From assembly GCA_002284875.1 (NCBI GenBank), contig CP015604.1:1364001-1428000 (forward strand): 64,000 nt of DNA, written 5' to 3'. The first letter of the stretch is position 1, and each line of letters opens with the position of its first letter. This document shows, one piece after another, positions 24,031 through 30,001 of this stretch. A program made the position numbers and the translations under genes. Under the pieces are notes generated by a model that worked only from the letters and a program-made list of their open reading frames with translations, was not told where the DNA came from and made no database searches. The DNA is from Actinobacteria bacterium IMCC26103. GTDB taxonomy: Bacteria > Actinomycetota > Actinomycetes > Nanopelagicales > Nanopelagicaceae.

Positions 24031-24354
24031 CTAATGCAGTGGGCGTAGTTCAACTTTTCGATTACAAGCTTTAGAAGCTGCGAAGGCAAGTGATCTAGCC
24101 GTTTCTGCATCGTTAGCTTCGATTACCCATAAGCCGCTGACGTTTTCTTTAGAATCAAAGAGCGGTCTGCCAGTGCTCAGATTGGCATCGCCACGATTAT
24201 CAATAACTGTTGCACTCTCGGGCGCATGTAAGCCCCAAGCGAAGATAAATTGGCCATTTGCACGAAGTTGGTCGTTGAACTTATTAATTTCAACCATCTC
24301 TTCAGGCGTTCCCGAATTTGCCTTCTCGTCAATTACAGAGAGTAGAAATTTCAC
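24031..24354 (-). CDS. YCII-related domain protein
   Basis: A 107-residue single-domain protein of the YCII/DGPF group: it opens with KFLLSVIDE, has LRANGQFIFAWGLHAPESA in the middle and FVE-type ending DAETARSLAFAASKACNRKVELRPL. These small ferredoxin-like proteins have no settled function, though some act in chlorinated-aromatic breakdown and others accompany ECF sigma factors. Start is a GTG at 24354; TATTAT (24364-24369 on the minus strand) lies 9 nt upstream, suggesting a leaderless transcript. That promoter abuts the left copy of the rnpB-derived repeat, so this gene probably lay immediately downstream of rnpB before the island arrived. Confidence 0.75.
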   Translation of the reverse strand: MKFLLSVIDEKANSGTPEEMVEINKFNDQLRANGQFIFAWGLHAPESATVIDNRGDANLSTGRPLFDSKENVSGLWVIEANDAETARSLAFAASKACNRKVELRPLH

Positions 24355-24368
24355 CTAGCGATCATAAT

Positions 24369-24392
24369 AGAAGAGTCGCCCTATAAGCCGGA
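24369..24392. repeat. rnpB 3'-end direct repeat, copy 1 (outer att-like site)
   Basis: Identical over 24 bases to 29472-29495 and to the true rnpB 3' end at 29635-29658, all in the same orientation. Copy 1 and copy 2 also share one further base (G). No rnpB body is attached here, so it is a displaced fragment and the expected mark of site-specific integration at an RNA gene end. Confidence 0.93.
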
Positions 24393-24402
24393 GACGACAT
24401 AG

Positions 24403-25554
24403 TTATGCGCGTGAGTAGAACACATCTAGTTGTGCTGAGGAAATTACCTTTCCTAACATTGCATTCACCAGATTAATCTCCGTTGCCTCTTGCGGAGAAA
24501 TCGTCAATTTTGAGTTCAATGCGTACAGATATATCGAATACTTCTTAGATCCTGGTCCTTGTGAGCACGGAGGTGTGTATCCCAGAGCTTTACCTTGGAA
24601 ATTTTGCCCTAGTGTCCCAACGTTTGTAGCACCCGCAGATATGGATGCGACTGTCTTAGGGATGTTAAATACTGTCAGGTAGACATGTTTTCCAACATCC
24701 ACTTCACCGGGACGCAATGGACCAGGAACAGTGTCCATGATCAACACAAGAGACTGAGTGTTGGTGGGAACATTGGACCAACTGAAAGATGGTGAAATTC
24801 CTTTCCCATCACAGGTGAAATCTATTGGAAGAGTCCCACCATTCTTGAAATCGGGACTACTTAAAACCAGTGATTTTGAGGCAGAGACCGCAGGTGCAGC
24901 CTTGATAACTTTGCGAAGAAGGATGATGTTGTCCAGCTTCAGATCCGACGACCAAATCAAAACGGCAGAGGGCGTCCACGTGAAATCAAAGTATCCATCT
25001 TTTACTCCGACGGCCTCTTTGGAAAACTCAGTCGCTAACTTCCATGATGAGTCTTTATAACTAGGTGCAGCCCAGGTGGAAGGCATCTTTACATTAGATG
25101 ATTTGCAGTCATTGATTGGATCATTTGATGTTACGCACTCAGGGTTTAGGGGCGCCTTATTTACCGTTAGGACTTTCCAGTCATTTTGCGATTGAGCAAT
25201 AACTCGATCAGAGACAACTTCCCGAATTTGAAGGATTATTCCCGCATCACCAATCTGCTGATTGGGCTTTCCGATGTACTCCAGTCCTGATGAATTTTCA
25301 GTGAAGTCCTTAGCTATTACCGCAATAGTTAGCGGGTATGTGGCAGAGAATTTGATTTTCTCGCTATTAAAGGATTTTTCAGTGGTTATTGGAACTGAAT
25401 CCTCGCCTACTTTTTTGCCATTTATGTAGAGCGCAAACCAATTATCAGCCCAAACTTCAGCTTGAAAGGCGACACTTTTACTTACAACCGCATGGCTTGG
25501 AGTGGGTAGTGTTAAAACAATTATTGACAAAGCAAGAGAAATAATTTTTTTCAT
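24403..25554 (-). CDS. Secreted jelly-roll plus PEBP (YbhB/YbcL-like) fusion protein
   Basis: A 383-residue exported protein. Residues 1-23 are a Sec signal peptide ending PSHA. Residues of about 25-215 form a beta-rich, galactose-binding-like domain (VWADNWFALYINGKKVGED near the start, WKLATEFSKEAVG later) with a Cys pair. Residues of about 230-383 are a phosphatidylethanolamine-binding protein domain of the bacterial YbhB/YbcL type, with FTCDGKGISPSFSWSNVP, LVLIMDTVPGP, HVYLTVFNIP and YTPPCSQGPGSKKYSIYLYAL. Catalysis is not established for YbhB-type proteins; the domain binds anionic or phosphate-like ligands in its relatives. ATG 25554 shares one base with the stop of the preceding phosphoesterase gene (TGATG). 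Confidence 0.82.
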   Translation of the reverse strand: MKKIISLALSIIVLTLPTPSHAVVSKSVAFQAEVWADNWFALYINGKKVGEDSVPITTEKSFNSEKIKFSATYPLTIAVIAKDFTENSSGLEYIGKPNQQIGDAGIILQIREVVSDRVIAQSQNDWKVLTVNKAPLNPECVTSNDPINDCKSSNVKMPSTWAAPSYKDSSWKLATEFSKEAVGVKDGYFDFTWTPSAVLIWSSDLKLDNIILLRKVIKAAPAVSASKSLVLSSPDFKNGGTLPIDFTCDGKGISPSFSWSNVPTNTQSLVLIMDTVPGPLRPGEVDVGKHVYLTVFNIPKTVASISAGATNVGTLGQNFQGKALGYTPPCSQGPGSKKYSIYLYALNSKLTISPQEATEINLVNAMLGKVISSAQLDVFYSRA

Positions 25555-26852
25555 CAAACGGCATCTCTCGTGTAAGTGTGGCCAATTTGACCGTCGTACA
25601 AGATGAAATCAACTTTTGCTTGGTTCCCACTTGTGGACACTTTCAGAAACCCAGAACCGCCAACACCTATTCCGGATGTATATCCGTATTGGTTTACATT
25701 AATTTTATTTCCAGGATGACTTGGTTGCGGAAGAGTTTGATAAATAATTCCATCAAGCTCCTGCTTAACGTATAGGTGGTCATGCCCCTTGAAGACAAAG
25801 CCAACTTTGTGATCTAACAACAGCTGATGAATAGGCTTGCCCCAGCCTGGTCGATACGTTTCAAAACCATCTGTTCCGTCATTGTTCTTGCCACCCCACT
25901 CATTCTTCATAGCGATTTCCACTCCCCCTCGAGAGGTTGGATCACCGACTAATAAATGGTGAATATAAATAAATTTATGTTTCTCCTTAGAATTCTTCAG
26001 CGTTTCGACTAGCCAGTCGTATTGCGTCTTTCCTAGCGTCCATTCCCAACCAGCCGGTGTTGGATTCTTCATTGTGTAGGTAAATGGATCCAGTACTACG
26101 TGTAATTGGTCTGGACCAGTAAATGAATAATAGGCAAGCTCTCCTGTTTGCTCGGGGAAGTACTCTTTCCGATAATTCTTGGTATTAAAGTTGCTATATC
26201 CAAGTTCACCATCATGATTTCCCAAACAAATCTTTAATGGAACGCTTCCCAGTTTTTGGTAATACCCCTTCATTAATTCAAATCGACCTCGAATATTTGC
26301 CTCTGTCTTACTTGGCAATTTATCGACCATAAAGATATCGCCTAGATCCATCAAAAAAGCGGGCGAAGCGGCGACAATCTGCTTCAGTGTTCCCTCATAC
26401 ACTTCTGCACTTGAATTTTCATCCATGTGGGGATCGGCTTGAATCGCAAATGTCGCGGTAGAAAGCGCATCGACATTTGCAGTTTGGACGCTTCTTTGAG
26501 GAAGCGAAGAAAAATTCTGACTTAGGCCGAGGGCATATTTCACCCTGTAGTAAACCAACGAACCTGGTTTCAGGTTTGTCACTGAAATATTTCTTGTTGA
26601 TCCTTTCGGAATACTAATGACTGACGTCTTTCCAGTGATAGCGCTCTTGCTATAGCCGTACTCGATGTAAGCCCTGGCTGCGGATGTTGCCGAAACCGCG
26701 CTCGTAAAAGAGTTTGGGGTCGGCGCCCCCACTATTTTCGATGTTACTGGAACCGCAGACATAGCTTTTCCGATAGGACTGCTCGCAAGAATGCTTAGCA
26801 GGGAGGCCTTAAGGAAACCGCGACGGTTCATAAAATTAAATGGATTACTCAT
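25554..26852 (-). CDS. Tat-exported metallophosphoesterase, purple acid phosphatase-like
   Basis: A 432-residue hydrolase likely folded before export: the N-terminus has the twin-arginine signal NRRGFLKASLLSILASSP. Next comes a fibronectin-III-like domain (about residues 40-130, ending LVYYRVKYALG). The calcineurin-like domain has its metal motifs in order: ADPH (family DxH), DLGDIF (GDxx), LGNHDGE (GNHD), FIYIHHLL (a His pair) and GHDHLYV (GHxH). The substrate is some phosphate ester outside the membrane. It overlaps the YHYH gene by 4 bp upstream and the PEBP gene by 1 bp downstream. It is a paralogue in layout of the larger enzyme at 27811. Confidence 0.87.
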   Translation of the reverse strand: MSNPFNFMNRRGFLKASLLSILASSPIGKAMSAVPVTSKIVGAPTPNSFTSAVSATSAARAYIEYGYSKSAITGKTSVISIPKGSTRNISVTNLKPGSLVYYRVKYALGLSQNFSSLPQRSVQTANVDALSTATFAIQADPHMDENSSAEVYEGTLKQIVAASPAFLMDLGDIFMVDKLPSKTEANIRGRFELMKGYYQKLGSVPLKICLGNHDGELGYSNFNTKNYRKEYFPEQTGELAYYSFTGPDQLHVVLDPFTYTMKNPTPAGWEWTLGKTQYDWLVETLKNSKEKHKFIYIHHLLVGDPTSRGGVEIAMKNEWGGKNNDGTDGFETYRPGWGKPIHQLLLDHKVGFVFKGHDHLYVKQELDGIIYQTLPQPSHPGNKINVNQYGYTSGIGVGGSGFLKVSTSGNQAKVDFILYDGQIGHTYTRDAV

Positions 26853-27808
26853 TTACGTTGATATACCTCTGTTCTGATTGACCCAGCTGAATCAATGAAC
26901 TGCATACTTACTTCATTAAGTGAGGCCGAATATTTAACATGGAAATCACTTCCGTTGAGCGTGTACTTCAAATCAAATGAAGTATCGCCAACACGCTCTA
27001 AGCCTGTAATCACTGCACCTCGCAGAGGTTCGCCAGCCGGTCTAAATGCCTTAGTTAAAGACTGTGGATCCACCTGTCCTTCTCTCTCTGTCACCACGCC
27101 TTTAAATCCTCCATTGATATATGGGTAGCTCTTGGTTGCGTGATAGTGATAATTCTTTTTTATATCAAAGTGGCCATTAAAGGCATCTAGCCCAGTGACT
27201 TTCTTACCATCTATTTCTGTTTCACCATAAATCGGAAATCCATCGAGAGCGTACGCGATTGGAACTTTTTTTCCGACAATAGTTTGAAGATGAGTTGGCG
27301 CGATGTGATAGTGATAATCATCAGCCCGACCGCAATGCCCTCCCCAATCATCAAGTTCGCCAGCCAAAAGCGCATCATCGCCTCGGTTATTAAGCGCGTT
27401 AAAGATTGGCACGCCATTGACCGCGATAGCTATTGCTCCTCGCAAGAAATGGTCACGCGCTGACATTGGATTGGCAGCGATCACGGGTTTGATTGGAATA
27501 GACCAAGCATTAGTTCCCGCATAGTTCTGGACTGTTGGCACTTGTTGCTGCCAACTTTTAATTCCGACCATCATTTGATGCGATGGAATTCCATTGCATT
27601 CTACGAGATAGTACTTATCGCCCTTAAACACTTTCACGGATTTGGCAAAGGCGATAAATCCAGGAAGTTTTGCAGCGGGAAGAGCGGATGCCGATTCAAT
27701 CGAAAGAATTGAATTAGCAAATACAAGTCCGGTCGCTAATCCTGAAATTTGTAGAAACTTGCGTCGATCTACTTCCGTTAAATGCCTGACTTCATGTTCA
27801 TGGTTCAT
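26849..27808 (-). CDS. Tat-exported YHYH-domain protein
   Basis: A 319-residue exported protein with a twin-arginine signal (DRRKFLQISGLATGLVFANS). The YHYH domain is clear: CGRADDYHYHIAPTHL and a second copy of the motif in KNYHYHATKSYPYINGGFKG, with FNALNNRGDDALLAGELDDWGGHCG before the first. The many His and acidic residues suggest a metal site, but no reaction is established for the family. A C-terminal beta region (LKYTLNGSDFHVKYSASLNE) completes it. It is coupled by a 4-bp overlap to the following phosphoesterase gene. YHYH genes near PEBP-type genes are known in other bacteria, which fits the operon. Confidence 0.85.
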   Translation of the reverse strand: MNHEHEVRHLTEVDRRKFLQISGLATGLVFANSILSIESASALPAAKLPGFIAFAKSVKVFKGDKYYLVECNGIPSHQMMVGIKSWQQQVPTVQNYAGTNAWSIPIKPVIAANPMSARDHFLRGAIAIAVNGVPIFNALNNRGDDALLAGELDDWGGHCGRADDYHYHIAPTHLQTIVGKKVPIAYALDGFPIYGETEIDGKKVTGLDAFNGHFDIKKNYHYHATKSYPYINGGFKGVVTEREGQVDPQSLTKAFRPAGEPLRGAVITGLERVGDTSFDLKYTLNGSDFHVKYSASLNEVSMQFIDSAGSIRTEVYQRK

Positions 27809-27810
27809 TT

Positions 27811-29373
27811 CTATGCCTTTGGTTTAACAATGTAGCTGTGTGCCACACTTAAATTCTTGCGCGTTGAATCTTTGCGTCTGGCTGCTAGGAAGTACTCAAC
27901 TTTCGCCTGCGCTGGCGCAACAGTAACTCGAACATGGCCTGAATTCGGCGCCTTAGTTCCGCTCTTATAAGCATCTTCATTAAACATAGAGAACGTGTCA
28001 TCCGCAGGGTTAGGCATAGACTGATAAATCAAACCGTCGCGCTCCTGAGTACAAAAAATGTGATCGTGTCCCTGGAAAAATATTGATACCTTGTTTTTCA
28101 CCATTAAGTCATGAATAGGTAGTTCCCAATTCGGACGCTCCTTGGCAAAAGTTGACTTGCCTTTGGGATCAATGCCTCCCCATTCATAATTGGTAGACAC
28201 TTCGATTGCCCCACGACCAGTACCCATCACGTGGTGTGCAAAAACAAATTTATATTTAGCTTTGCTTGTTTCCAAAGTTTTTTTCAGCCACGCATATTGT
28301 TCATCGCCAATTCCAATATCCCAAAGATTGGTTACTTTTCCATTTCCTGTAGGAGTTGCTGTTGCGGTTTCTACAGGTGTAGCGCCACCTTTCTTTTTTC
28401 CGCCCCCACCACCTCCGCCACCCTTAGCGGCTGATGGATCCTCTACGCCTGCAACGTTGTCCACGGGATTACTTGAATGCCAATAAGGATCCAAAGTTAT
28501 AAATAGCGCATCACCCCAAGTCCAAGAGTAGTAATCGCGCGGAAGGCCTAATCCAGGGATCGGTGTTGCGTCTCCATTGTAAAAATTATCAGGTTCTGGA
28601 AGAGGAAAATATTTCAATCGAGCATTACCAGCCAAGATCGCTGGATTCGTAGTTGTCCCATCAAGCAGATATGCCGCTGCTTGCTCGTGGTTTCCATTAA
28701 CGAGAAAAAGTGGAACAGAGCTAGTTGCAATCGTGAGCCAGTTTCTATGAGTGCTGTAGATTTTTTCAACATTCTCTTGGCTCGCCTGGCCTTTGCTAAT
28801 AAGCGGATCAATACTGAAATCATCACCCACCATGATGTGAAAATCGGGCTGCTGGGAAGCAATGTTTGCAAGTGTTACCCCATACAACTCAGCATTGAAC
28901 ATCTTGCCGGCACGCTCTGGGTGAGTATCTCCATGAACTGAAAAACTGAAAGTTGATCCAGCCTTGCGAGCCGTAGTAAATGAGTACTGCTTTCCATTCA
29001 TAAAGTTGGCATCTGATGCGCCCTTGAAATTTACTCTGTAGTACACCTTGGTTCCAGCACGCAATCCTTTGATATCAAAGACTGCTGGAGCACTTGGGGC
29101 TGTTTGCAATTGAGAAGTCTTACTTGAGTAACGTGTCTTTGAAGTTCCATACTCAACAAATGTTGTGACTGGTTGCGAAGATAAAACACTTACTGCGATT
29201 GAGGTGGTGGTTGGTCGACCCAAAACTTGAGTAATAACTGGAGCTGTTACTCCGATTGCTTTTCCGATCGAAGTACCCGCAACGGCAGTTGTAAATGCCA
29301 TCAAAAGAAGAGATCGGCGTGTAATTGGGGCCTTGACCCATGACTTCATTAAATATGAAGCGTTGTTTTCCAT
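27811..29373 (-). CDS. Exported metallophosphoesterase with a Gly/Lys-rich insertion
   Basis: First gene of the island operon, 520 residues. The N-terminus looks like a twin-arginine signal (ITRRSLLLMAFTTAVAGTS), followed by an FNIII-like domain (about residues 45-130) and a calcineurin-like phosphoesterase domain. The metal motifs are VHGDTHPE, MVGDDFS, LVNGNHEQ, FVFAHHVMG and FQGHDHIFC. Between the third and fourth motifs there is an unusual low-complexity insertion at about residues 315-345: a run of Gly, then Lys, then Thr/Pro. It probably acts on extracellular organic phosphate; GDD in place of the common GDxxY and the insertion distinguish it from the enzyme at 25554. ATG 29373 is used; ATG 29349 is an alternative. 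Confidence 0.85.
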   Translation of the reverse strand: MENNASYLMKSWVKAPITRRSLLLMAFTTAVAGTSIGKAIGVTAPVITQVLGRPTTTSIAVSVLSSQPVTTFVEYGTSKTRYSSKTSQLQTAPSAPAVFDIKGLRAGTKVYYRVNFKGASDANFMNGKQYSFTTARKAGSTFSFSVHGDTHPERAGKMFNAELYGVTLANIASQQPDFHIMVGDDFSIDPLISKGQASQENVEKIYSTHRNWLTIATSSVPLFLVNGNHEQAAAYLLDGTTTNPAILAGNARLKYFPLPEPDNFYNGDATPIPGLGLPRDYYSWTWGDALFITLDPYWHSSNPVDNVAGVEDPSAAKGGGGGGGGKKKGGATPVETATATPTGNGKVTNLWDIGIGDEQYAWLKKTLETSKAKYKFVFAHHVMGTGRGAIEVSTNYEWGGIDPKGKSTFAKERPNWELPIHDLMVKNKVSIFFQGHDHIFCTQERDGLIYQSMPNPADDTFSMFNEDAYKSGTKAPNSGHVRVTVAPAQAKVEYFLAARRKDSTRKNLSVAHSYIVKPKA

Positions 29374-29471
29374 TCCTAGACTTTAGGTGAGCTTTCGCTG
29401 GCACACCAGAATTATTGATTTAGAAAATCCAAGGAAAATCCTGTGAATATCTATCGCCGCACGAGAATTGA

Positions 29472-29495
29472 AGAAGAGTCGCCCTATAAGCCGGA
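29472..29495. repeat. rnpB 3'-end direct repeat, copy 2 (inner att-like site)
   Basis: Same 24 bases as copy 1 and as the functional rnpB end, lying 163 bp from the latter. It forms the right boundary of the 5.1-kb island and the left boundary of a second, very short interval. Confidence 0.93.
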
Positions 29496-29504
29496 GCTGA
29501 TTAC

Positions 29505-29615
29505 CTAAATCGAATCCTTCTGTTCCTCAATATCTTTACCTTTTAAGTGATACCAAGCCGCATAAATCAGCGCAGCAATTTCAAGAACAGCAAAAACGAT
29601 CAAAAAAGTTTTCAC
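29505..29615 (-). CDS. Possible 36-residue single-helix membrane peptide
   Basis: Between repeat copies 2 and 3 the minus strand holds a GTG-started frame of 36 codons plus stop. It encodes a short basic start, a hydrophobic stretch of about 18 residues (FLIVFAVLEIAALIYAAWY) and a charged tail (KGKDIEEQKDSI). The composition is what a real small membrane protein would have and the frame fills most of the 163-bp interval, but there is no convincing ribosome site, so I hold it as a candidate. No family is recognised. Confidence 0.4.
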   Translation of the reverse strand: MKTFLIVFAVLEIAALIYAAWYHLKGKDIEEQKDSI

Positions 29616-29634
29616 AAATAAATGGTAGCAAAAG

Positions 29635-29658
29635 AGAAGAGTCGCCCTATAAGCCGGA
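29635..29658. repeat. rnpB 3'-end repeat, copy 3 (functional gene end)
   Basis: This copy is continuous with the complete RNase P RNA gene and supplies the 3' strand of its terminal P1 helix. It is the presumed original integration target; each insertion recreated the gene end here. Confidence 0.93.
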
Positions 29659-30001
29659 TCCTGTCCTCTTGCGAGGGATCACCATCCATCTAGATCTGTA
29701 ATTGCTTACAGATTCGAGCAACCTACCCGATGGCTCGAACGAGCAGTTCTCAAACGCCATCTGCGTGGTCTTGCTTCAGGTGGGGTTTACCAAGCTATCT
29801 GCATCACTACAAATACTGGTGGTCTCTTACACCACCGTTTCACCCTTACACATTTTCATGTGCGGTCTATTTTCTGTGGCACTAATCCCGCGGATTTCTC
29901 CGGGTGGGTGTTACCCACCACCTTGCTCTGCGAAGTCCGGACTTTCCTCGGTCCACCTAGAAATTAATCTGGGCGCAACGCGGTGATCCGGGCGACTCTT
30001 C
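29636..30001 (-). ncRNA. rnpB: RNase P RNA, bacterial type A
   Basis: Catalytic RNA that removes the 5' leader of pre-tRNAs. On the minus strand the molecule opens with AAGAGTCGCCCGGATC and closes with GGGCGACTCTT, which pair as helix P1. In between are the universal GAGGAAAGTCCGGAC core near the 5' side, GGGTGAAACGGTG, GGTAAACCCC and the 3' core AGGATCCGGCTTATAGG. Ends are placed by the P1 pairing and may be off by a few bases. Its 3' terminus is the repeated att-like sequence described separately. Confidence 0.95.

Follow-up and report, generated by a model that had tools for sequence, protein, structure and literature searches.

The locus described here raises the question of why the last bases of rnpB, the gene for the RNA component of RNase P, should be present three times in the same orientation, with protein-coding genes between the copies. 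It lies in a 64,000-nucleotide stretch of DNA (the window) from Actinobacteria bacterium IMCC26103, a member of the Nanopelagicaceae (acI lineage). The acI actinobacteria are among the commonest lake bacteria and have very small genomes; to our knowledge, the routes by which they gain genes are poorly known. The initial annotation of the window read the repeats as stacked site-specific integrations at rnpB. This main reading is supported by the variable occupancy of the site, by units that are intact across genera, by the comparison of two relatives (G083 and G052) and by integrases situated beside rnpB copies, and it applies far more widely than the window.

An exact-match search places the 24 bases AGAAGAGTCGCCCTATAAGCCGGA, all on the same strand, at 29635–29658 (copy 3), 29472–29495 (copy 2) and 24369–24392 (copy 1), which confirms the coordinates first reported. 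The target gene, a class A RNase P RNA on the minus strand at 29634–29999, is intact and complete (Rfam RF00010, model positions 1–367 of 367, 304.6 bits, E 9.7e-99); copy 3 is therefore the genuine 3' end of rnpB, and copies 2 and 1 are displaced copies downstream of it. The order, read from rnpB along the minus strand, is core, 139 bp, core, a four-gene operon, the outermost core and, 14 bp further, a YCII-domain gene (24031–24354, minus strand; PF03795, 2.7e-6). No integrase is encoded in either unit of this array. When the closed 1.46-Mb genome was searched with a 23-mer, allowing up to three mismatches, the matches were the three window sites and one ectopic site (C1:347004, one mismatch). 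A reversed control pattern of the core gave zero matches in every genome searched, and a genome of 1.46 Mb should not contain an exact 23-base repeat by chance.

Cassette 1, which adjoins rnpB (body 29496–29634, minus strand; 163 bp core to core), would be the most recent insertion under the stacking model. Its length of 139 bp between cores is as first described, but the interval is not featureless: a 36-codon ORF with a GTG start (29505–29615, minus strand) possibly encodes a single-helix membrane peptide. This ORF has no Pfam match, and no homologue among the array loci compared. Cassette 2 (body 24393–29471, minus strand; 5103 bp core to core) was described as a self-contained operon of exported proteins, and its four genes, all on the minus strand, are recognized by Pfam, with signals assigned by eye. 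In the direction of transcription they encode a calcineurin-like metallophosphoesterase (27811–29373; PF00149, 4.8e-7), a YHYH-domain protein (26849–27808; PF14240, 1.6e-15) and a second calcineurin-like metallophosphoesterase (25554–26852; PF00149, 3.2e-7), each with a twin-arginine-like N-terminus, followed by an exported PEBP-domain protein (24403–25557; PF01161, 7.1e-17). An extra base common to copies 1 and 2 had been taken to mean that they descend from one att site. Read on the rnpB strand, this base is one C that precedes the core; among displaced copies the base in this position is highly mixed (T in 63, C in 47, A in 37 and G in 20), so that the shared C tells nothing about descent.

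The ectopic rnpB-end copy of the window genome (37 bp, 92%; L002, G000:C1:345491-348527) heads a cassette with an XRE regulator and a membrane-protein gene, which is also found within the rnpB arrays of other genomes. By eye, this cassette is flanked by direct repeats resembling the 3' end of a tRNA-Ser gene.

A search with rnpB as query reveals that its last 24 bases recur downstream in many genomes of the same genus. Across the family, the 22-base rnpB end was found in 120 of 159 Nanopelagicaceae genomes, from 13 of 16 genera, and many have two to seven copies, in a sample with one genome per species and in which many contigs end just past rnpB. Core copies were examined in detail in 26 genomes. 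The oriented loci comprise 141 core-to-core units, of which the shortest has 93 bp and the longest 11.4 kb; the median is 925 bp, and 73 are shorter than 1 kb. Core orientation is mixed in none of these loci. Simple mechanical calling with a threshold of 60 codons, which gives approximate counts, found a single ORF in 60 of the 141 units and two in 29. The ORFs run predominantly with rnpB (235, as against 91 in the opposite direction), and often no more than 50 bp separate the core from the first start codon in the forward direction. The cargo, as judged by Pfam from 52 cassette proteins, includes EamA, GNAT, MFS, DoxX and SMR proteins and methionine sulfoxide reductase, together with many unknown families.

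Some units are of a different nature. A cassette of 380–475 bp, absent from the window's array, contains a tRNA-like gene designated tRNA-Gly(ACC) by ARAGORN (L041:5695-5769, L065:1870-1944, L126:10406-10480 and about 20 other loci), usually approximately 205 or 300 bp past a core and often 175 bp ahead of the next. The predicted RNA bears the alanine identity marks A73 and a G3-U70 pair. Its D stem is weak, its anticodon stem has six pairs and shows compensatory changes, and the CCA is encoded. Three further units (L054:4274-4373, L057:6104-6257 and L077:10793-11086) include approximately 100–290 nt of the 3' part of rnpB, beyond the core alone. A second core pair, far from the rnpB array, is present in a g12 genome (L143; G217:C2:558200 and 569583). 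In addition, displaced rnpB-end copies occur in the Streptosporangiaceae (L195:1661-9116; several in L200, Microtetraspora; L229).

Comparison of relatives places the variation precisely at the rnpB end. Of the 853 genome pairs that can be aligned across rnpB, 797 lose homology no more than 40 bp from its 3' end, and such breaks are seen even in pairs with 97–100% rnpB identity. Once alignments of rnpB itself are set aside, 1137 local alignments remain, of which 256 begin at a core, against a random mean of 4.8 (maximum 21), and 45 span core to core, against a random mean of 0.07 (maximum 4). Near-identical units, cut exactly core to core, are found in different genera and at different positions in the arrays: a 303-bp cassette is 98% identical in G010 and G195, and a 931-bp unit is 93.5% identical in G132 and G145, each pair representing different genera. 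A 5.2-kb match between G101 and G176, again of different genera, includes the adjoining rnpB and has 98% identity. A MarR–DoxX block is situated directly behind rnpB in G052 and behind an additional 434-bp cassette in G083 (70% identity); G083 and G052 are thus an occupied and an unoccupied site for this cassette.

In G088 the counterpart of the window's four-gene operon, 88% identical over 5.0 kb, directly follows rnpB and fills the interval between two cores; beyond the second of these comes a YCII homologue itself bounded by two cores. Relative to G088, the window has one extra unit, of 163 bp. The two versions of the operon unit do not agree over their left 40–300 bp, which calls for extra recombination. 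The initial annotation predicted an empty site in which the rnpB end is joined straight to the YCII gene. This was not found among the relatives; the core-to-YCII junction reappears in G088 and G176, there behind other cassettes.

Homology often also breaks a few bases from the 5' end of rnpB, even at 97–100% rnpB identity, and the upstream neighbours differ. It may be that rnpB itself has changed place.

The absence of an integrase, part of the original description, holds for the window's locus but not for the system as a whole, since the search proposed there, for integrases beside rnpB in related genomes, was successful in several Nanopelagicaceae assemblies. G050 encodes a 374-aa tyrosine integrase (PF00589, 1.3e-26) that ends 37 bp ahead of a displaced core. 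Its homologues in G056 (two), G074 and G202, with 42–54% identity, are all located at rnpB or a displaced core, and the same is true of the integrase in the L161 and L162 assemblies. The rnpB-located integrases of the Nanopelagicaceae form one clade (support 100/100) with the residues R-K-H-R-H-Y. Their neighbours, some of which were scanned with Pfam and PHROGs, include a conserved gene upstream of int and genes for a zinc-finger repeat protein and for excisionase-like proteins of the HTH_17 type. The G202 element also encodes a primase-like protein and, by eye only, a methylase–helicase pair. Elements of the G074 type have a degenerate distal core, with four or five mismatches.

Outside the family, distant relatives of these integrases (approximately 27–34%) are encoded within about 100–300 bp of a full rnpB in Planomonospora, Nonomuraea, Streptosporangium, Planotetraspora and others, and Actinomadura is also among the genera with a related integrase beside a full rnpB. 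On a viral contig, L239, a 28-base rnpB end adjoins the integrase gene. The 22-base core had no match in the viral contig collection, and among the best matches in phage records, Arthrobacter phages Kukla and TripleJ and corynephage 304L have no recognizable rnpB end near int. The rnpB-adjacent integrases as a whole do not form one clade in the tree, which implies at most seven changes; this count is an upper bound because L163, L169 and L186 were labelled as having no such location although other evidence places them next to rnpB. As they are not a single clade, specificity for rnpB may have had more than one origin, or may have been lost.

Most arrays have no integrase beside rnpB. Eight closed array genomes (G015, G083, G098, G068, G101, G133, G134 and G176) encode only two PF00589 proteins each, taken to be XerC and XerD, so that the enzyme responsible acts from outside, was lost, or is something else. 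Serine recombinases were considered as movers and rejected, being absent from 16 of 17 closed genomes, with one in G083. From the lack of other PF00589 proteins, and of serine resolvases in nearly all closed genomes, we infer action in trans by transient helpers.

We consider it probable that rnpB is the attB of a tyrosine integrase family and that the integrase-less cassettes, including the two in the window, have been moved in trans. The rnpB 3' end would be the chromosomal attachment site of the Nanopelagicaceae tyrosine integrases. A circular element or cassette carrying the 23–26 bp core would recombine with the rnpB end, the host contributing rnpB up to the core and the incoming unit contributing a new 3' end. 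The old end would be displaced downstream as a core, and repeated rounds would build a tandem array with the youngest unit beside rnpB. Autonomous elements of approximately 5–11 kb would carry genes for the integrase and for excisionase-like HTH proteins, and one of them also a gene for a primase-like protein; integrase-less cassettes would use the same core and be mobilized in trans by the autonomous elements, with transient helpers as the source of integrase. Cleavage of the core by the integrase, circular intermediates, movement and excision would all be part of such a process, and cassettes would presumably be expressed from rnpB and benefit from a site behind a transcribed gene. Upstream of the core stands rnpB sequence in the one situation and unrelated sequence in the other; strand exchange would accordingly be predicted at or inside the 23–26 bp block, with TCCGGCTTATAGGGCGACTCTTC as a candidate segment. 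Displaced cores vary most at bases 1–4 and moderately elsewhere, and rnpB-attached cores are almost invariant, a pattern that fits retention of the host's 5' part and acquisition of the 3' end from the incoming unit. More tentatively, it is possible that rnpB is a resident, integron-like capture platform, at which promoterless single-gene cassettes from a family-wide gene pool are caught by helper integrases in trans.

Some of these observations could be explained differently. If the units were residual islands, each once a full element from which the integrase has been deleted, no movement in trans would be required, and homologous recombination would exchange graveyard arrays between genomes. 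An integrase C-terminal fragment just past a core in G082 and the decay of displaced cores are in line with such an origin, and the G101/G176 match takes in rnpB, as homologous exchange would. However, many single-gene units of 160–600 bp recur core to core with different neighbours and in different genera, and have no longer shared flanks, which makes it unlikely that the arrays are residues only. Another recombinase could instead move the cassettes, for example the resident XerC/XerD pair, in the manner of Xer-exploiting elements. Proteins of this type are the sole two with PF00589 left in several closed array genomes, and serine resolvases are missing from 16 of 17 closed genomes; yet, by eye, the core is without a dif-like pair of 11-bp arms around a 6-bp centre, and a dedicated integrase clade is located at this same core. 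We therefore regard movement by Xer or a comparable enzyme as very unlikely.

A last possibility, that the copies act as conserved RNA or regulatory elements or arose by duplication with no recombinase involved, is highly improbable. The core does belong to helix P1 of the RNA, and several units have a hairpin just past the core, but close relatives differ in layout, displaced copies change along their whole length and integrases adjoin them. One common layout with the copies acting as conserved RNA elements was the outcome that the initial annotation set against its own reading, and it is not what the relatives display; core decay and the turnover of junctions contradict the conserved-RNA version of this explanation. 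Integration at rnpB by a tyrosine integrase, with most cassettes moved in trans, is thus the reading retained here.

In the open-access literature we found no published account of rnpB as an attachment site or of rnpB arrays; one may exist elsewhere. If cassettes are exchanged at one fixed site, this would be a main route of gene flow in acI, and a single 23-base probe detects the system in any metagenome. With a defined integrase and site, rnpB would join the RNA genes used as attachment sites, and the arrays are an example of cassettes lined up with no resident integron integrase.

The closest known systems are elements at tRNA and tmRNA 3' ends, such as Islander-type islands, AICEs and prophages. 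They likewise target the 3' end of an RNA gene, which is restored while a displaced fragment marks the far end, they have a tyrosine integrase near one end, and they can be stacked in tandem. The rnpB units have the direct repeats of the target end at their boundaries that are characteristic of such elements, exact over 24 bp in the window and present family-wide. An integrase is encoded by the elements in G050, G056, G074, G202, L161 and L162, and not by the window's units. The differences are that the target here is rnpB, that most units are without an integrase, that half are shorter than 1 kb, and that there are up to seven copies. Islander is described as covering tRNA and tmRNA genes (PMC4383910), and a survey of actinobacterial ICEs makes no mention of rnpB (PMC3218068).

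Phage satellites, PICIs and tycheposons are also small and non-autonomous, and like them the rnpB cassettes would need a helper. In contrast to these elements, no packaging or capsid-remodelling genes were recognized by Pfam among the 52 cassette proteins scanned.

Integrons and CALINs resemble the rnpB arrays in their tandem, often single-gene and mostly co-directional cassettes, with one site each, from which the first start codon is often no more than 50 bp away, and in cargo such as SMR, GNAT and EamA proteins. Unlike in integrons, no integron-type integrase was found beside the rnpB arrays, as judged by PF00589, most arrays have no integrase of any kind next to rnpB, and it is an essential RNA gene whose end serves as the primary site. 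In addition, when 139 displaced cores were folded together with flanks of 40 bp, attC-like structure proved not to be general: the median z is −0.55, and 28 of them have at least 10 pairs centred on the core. The system may therefore best be described as having the anatomy of integration at an RNA-gene 3' end and the array format of an integron.
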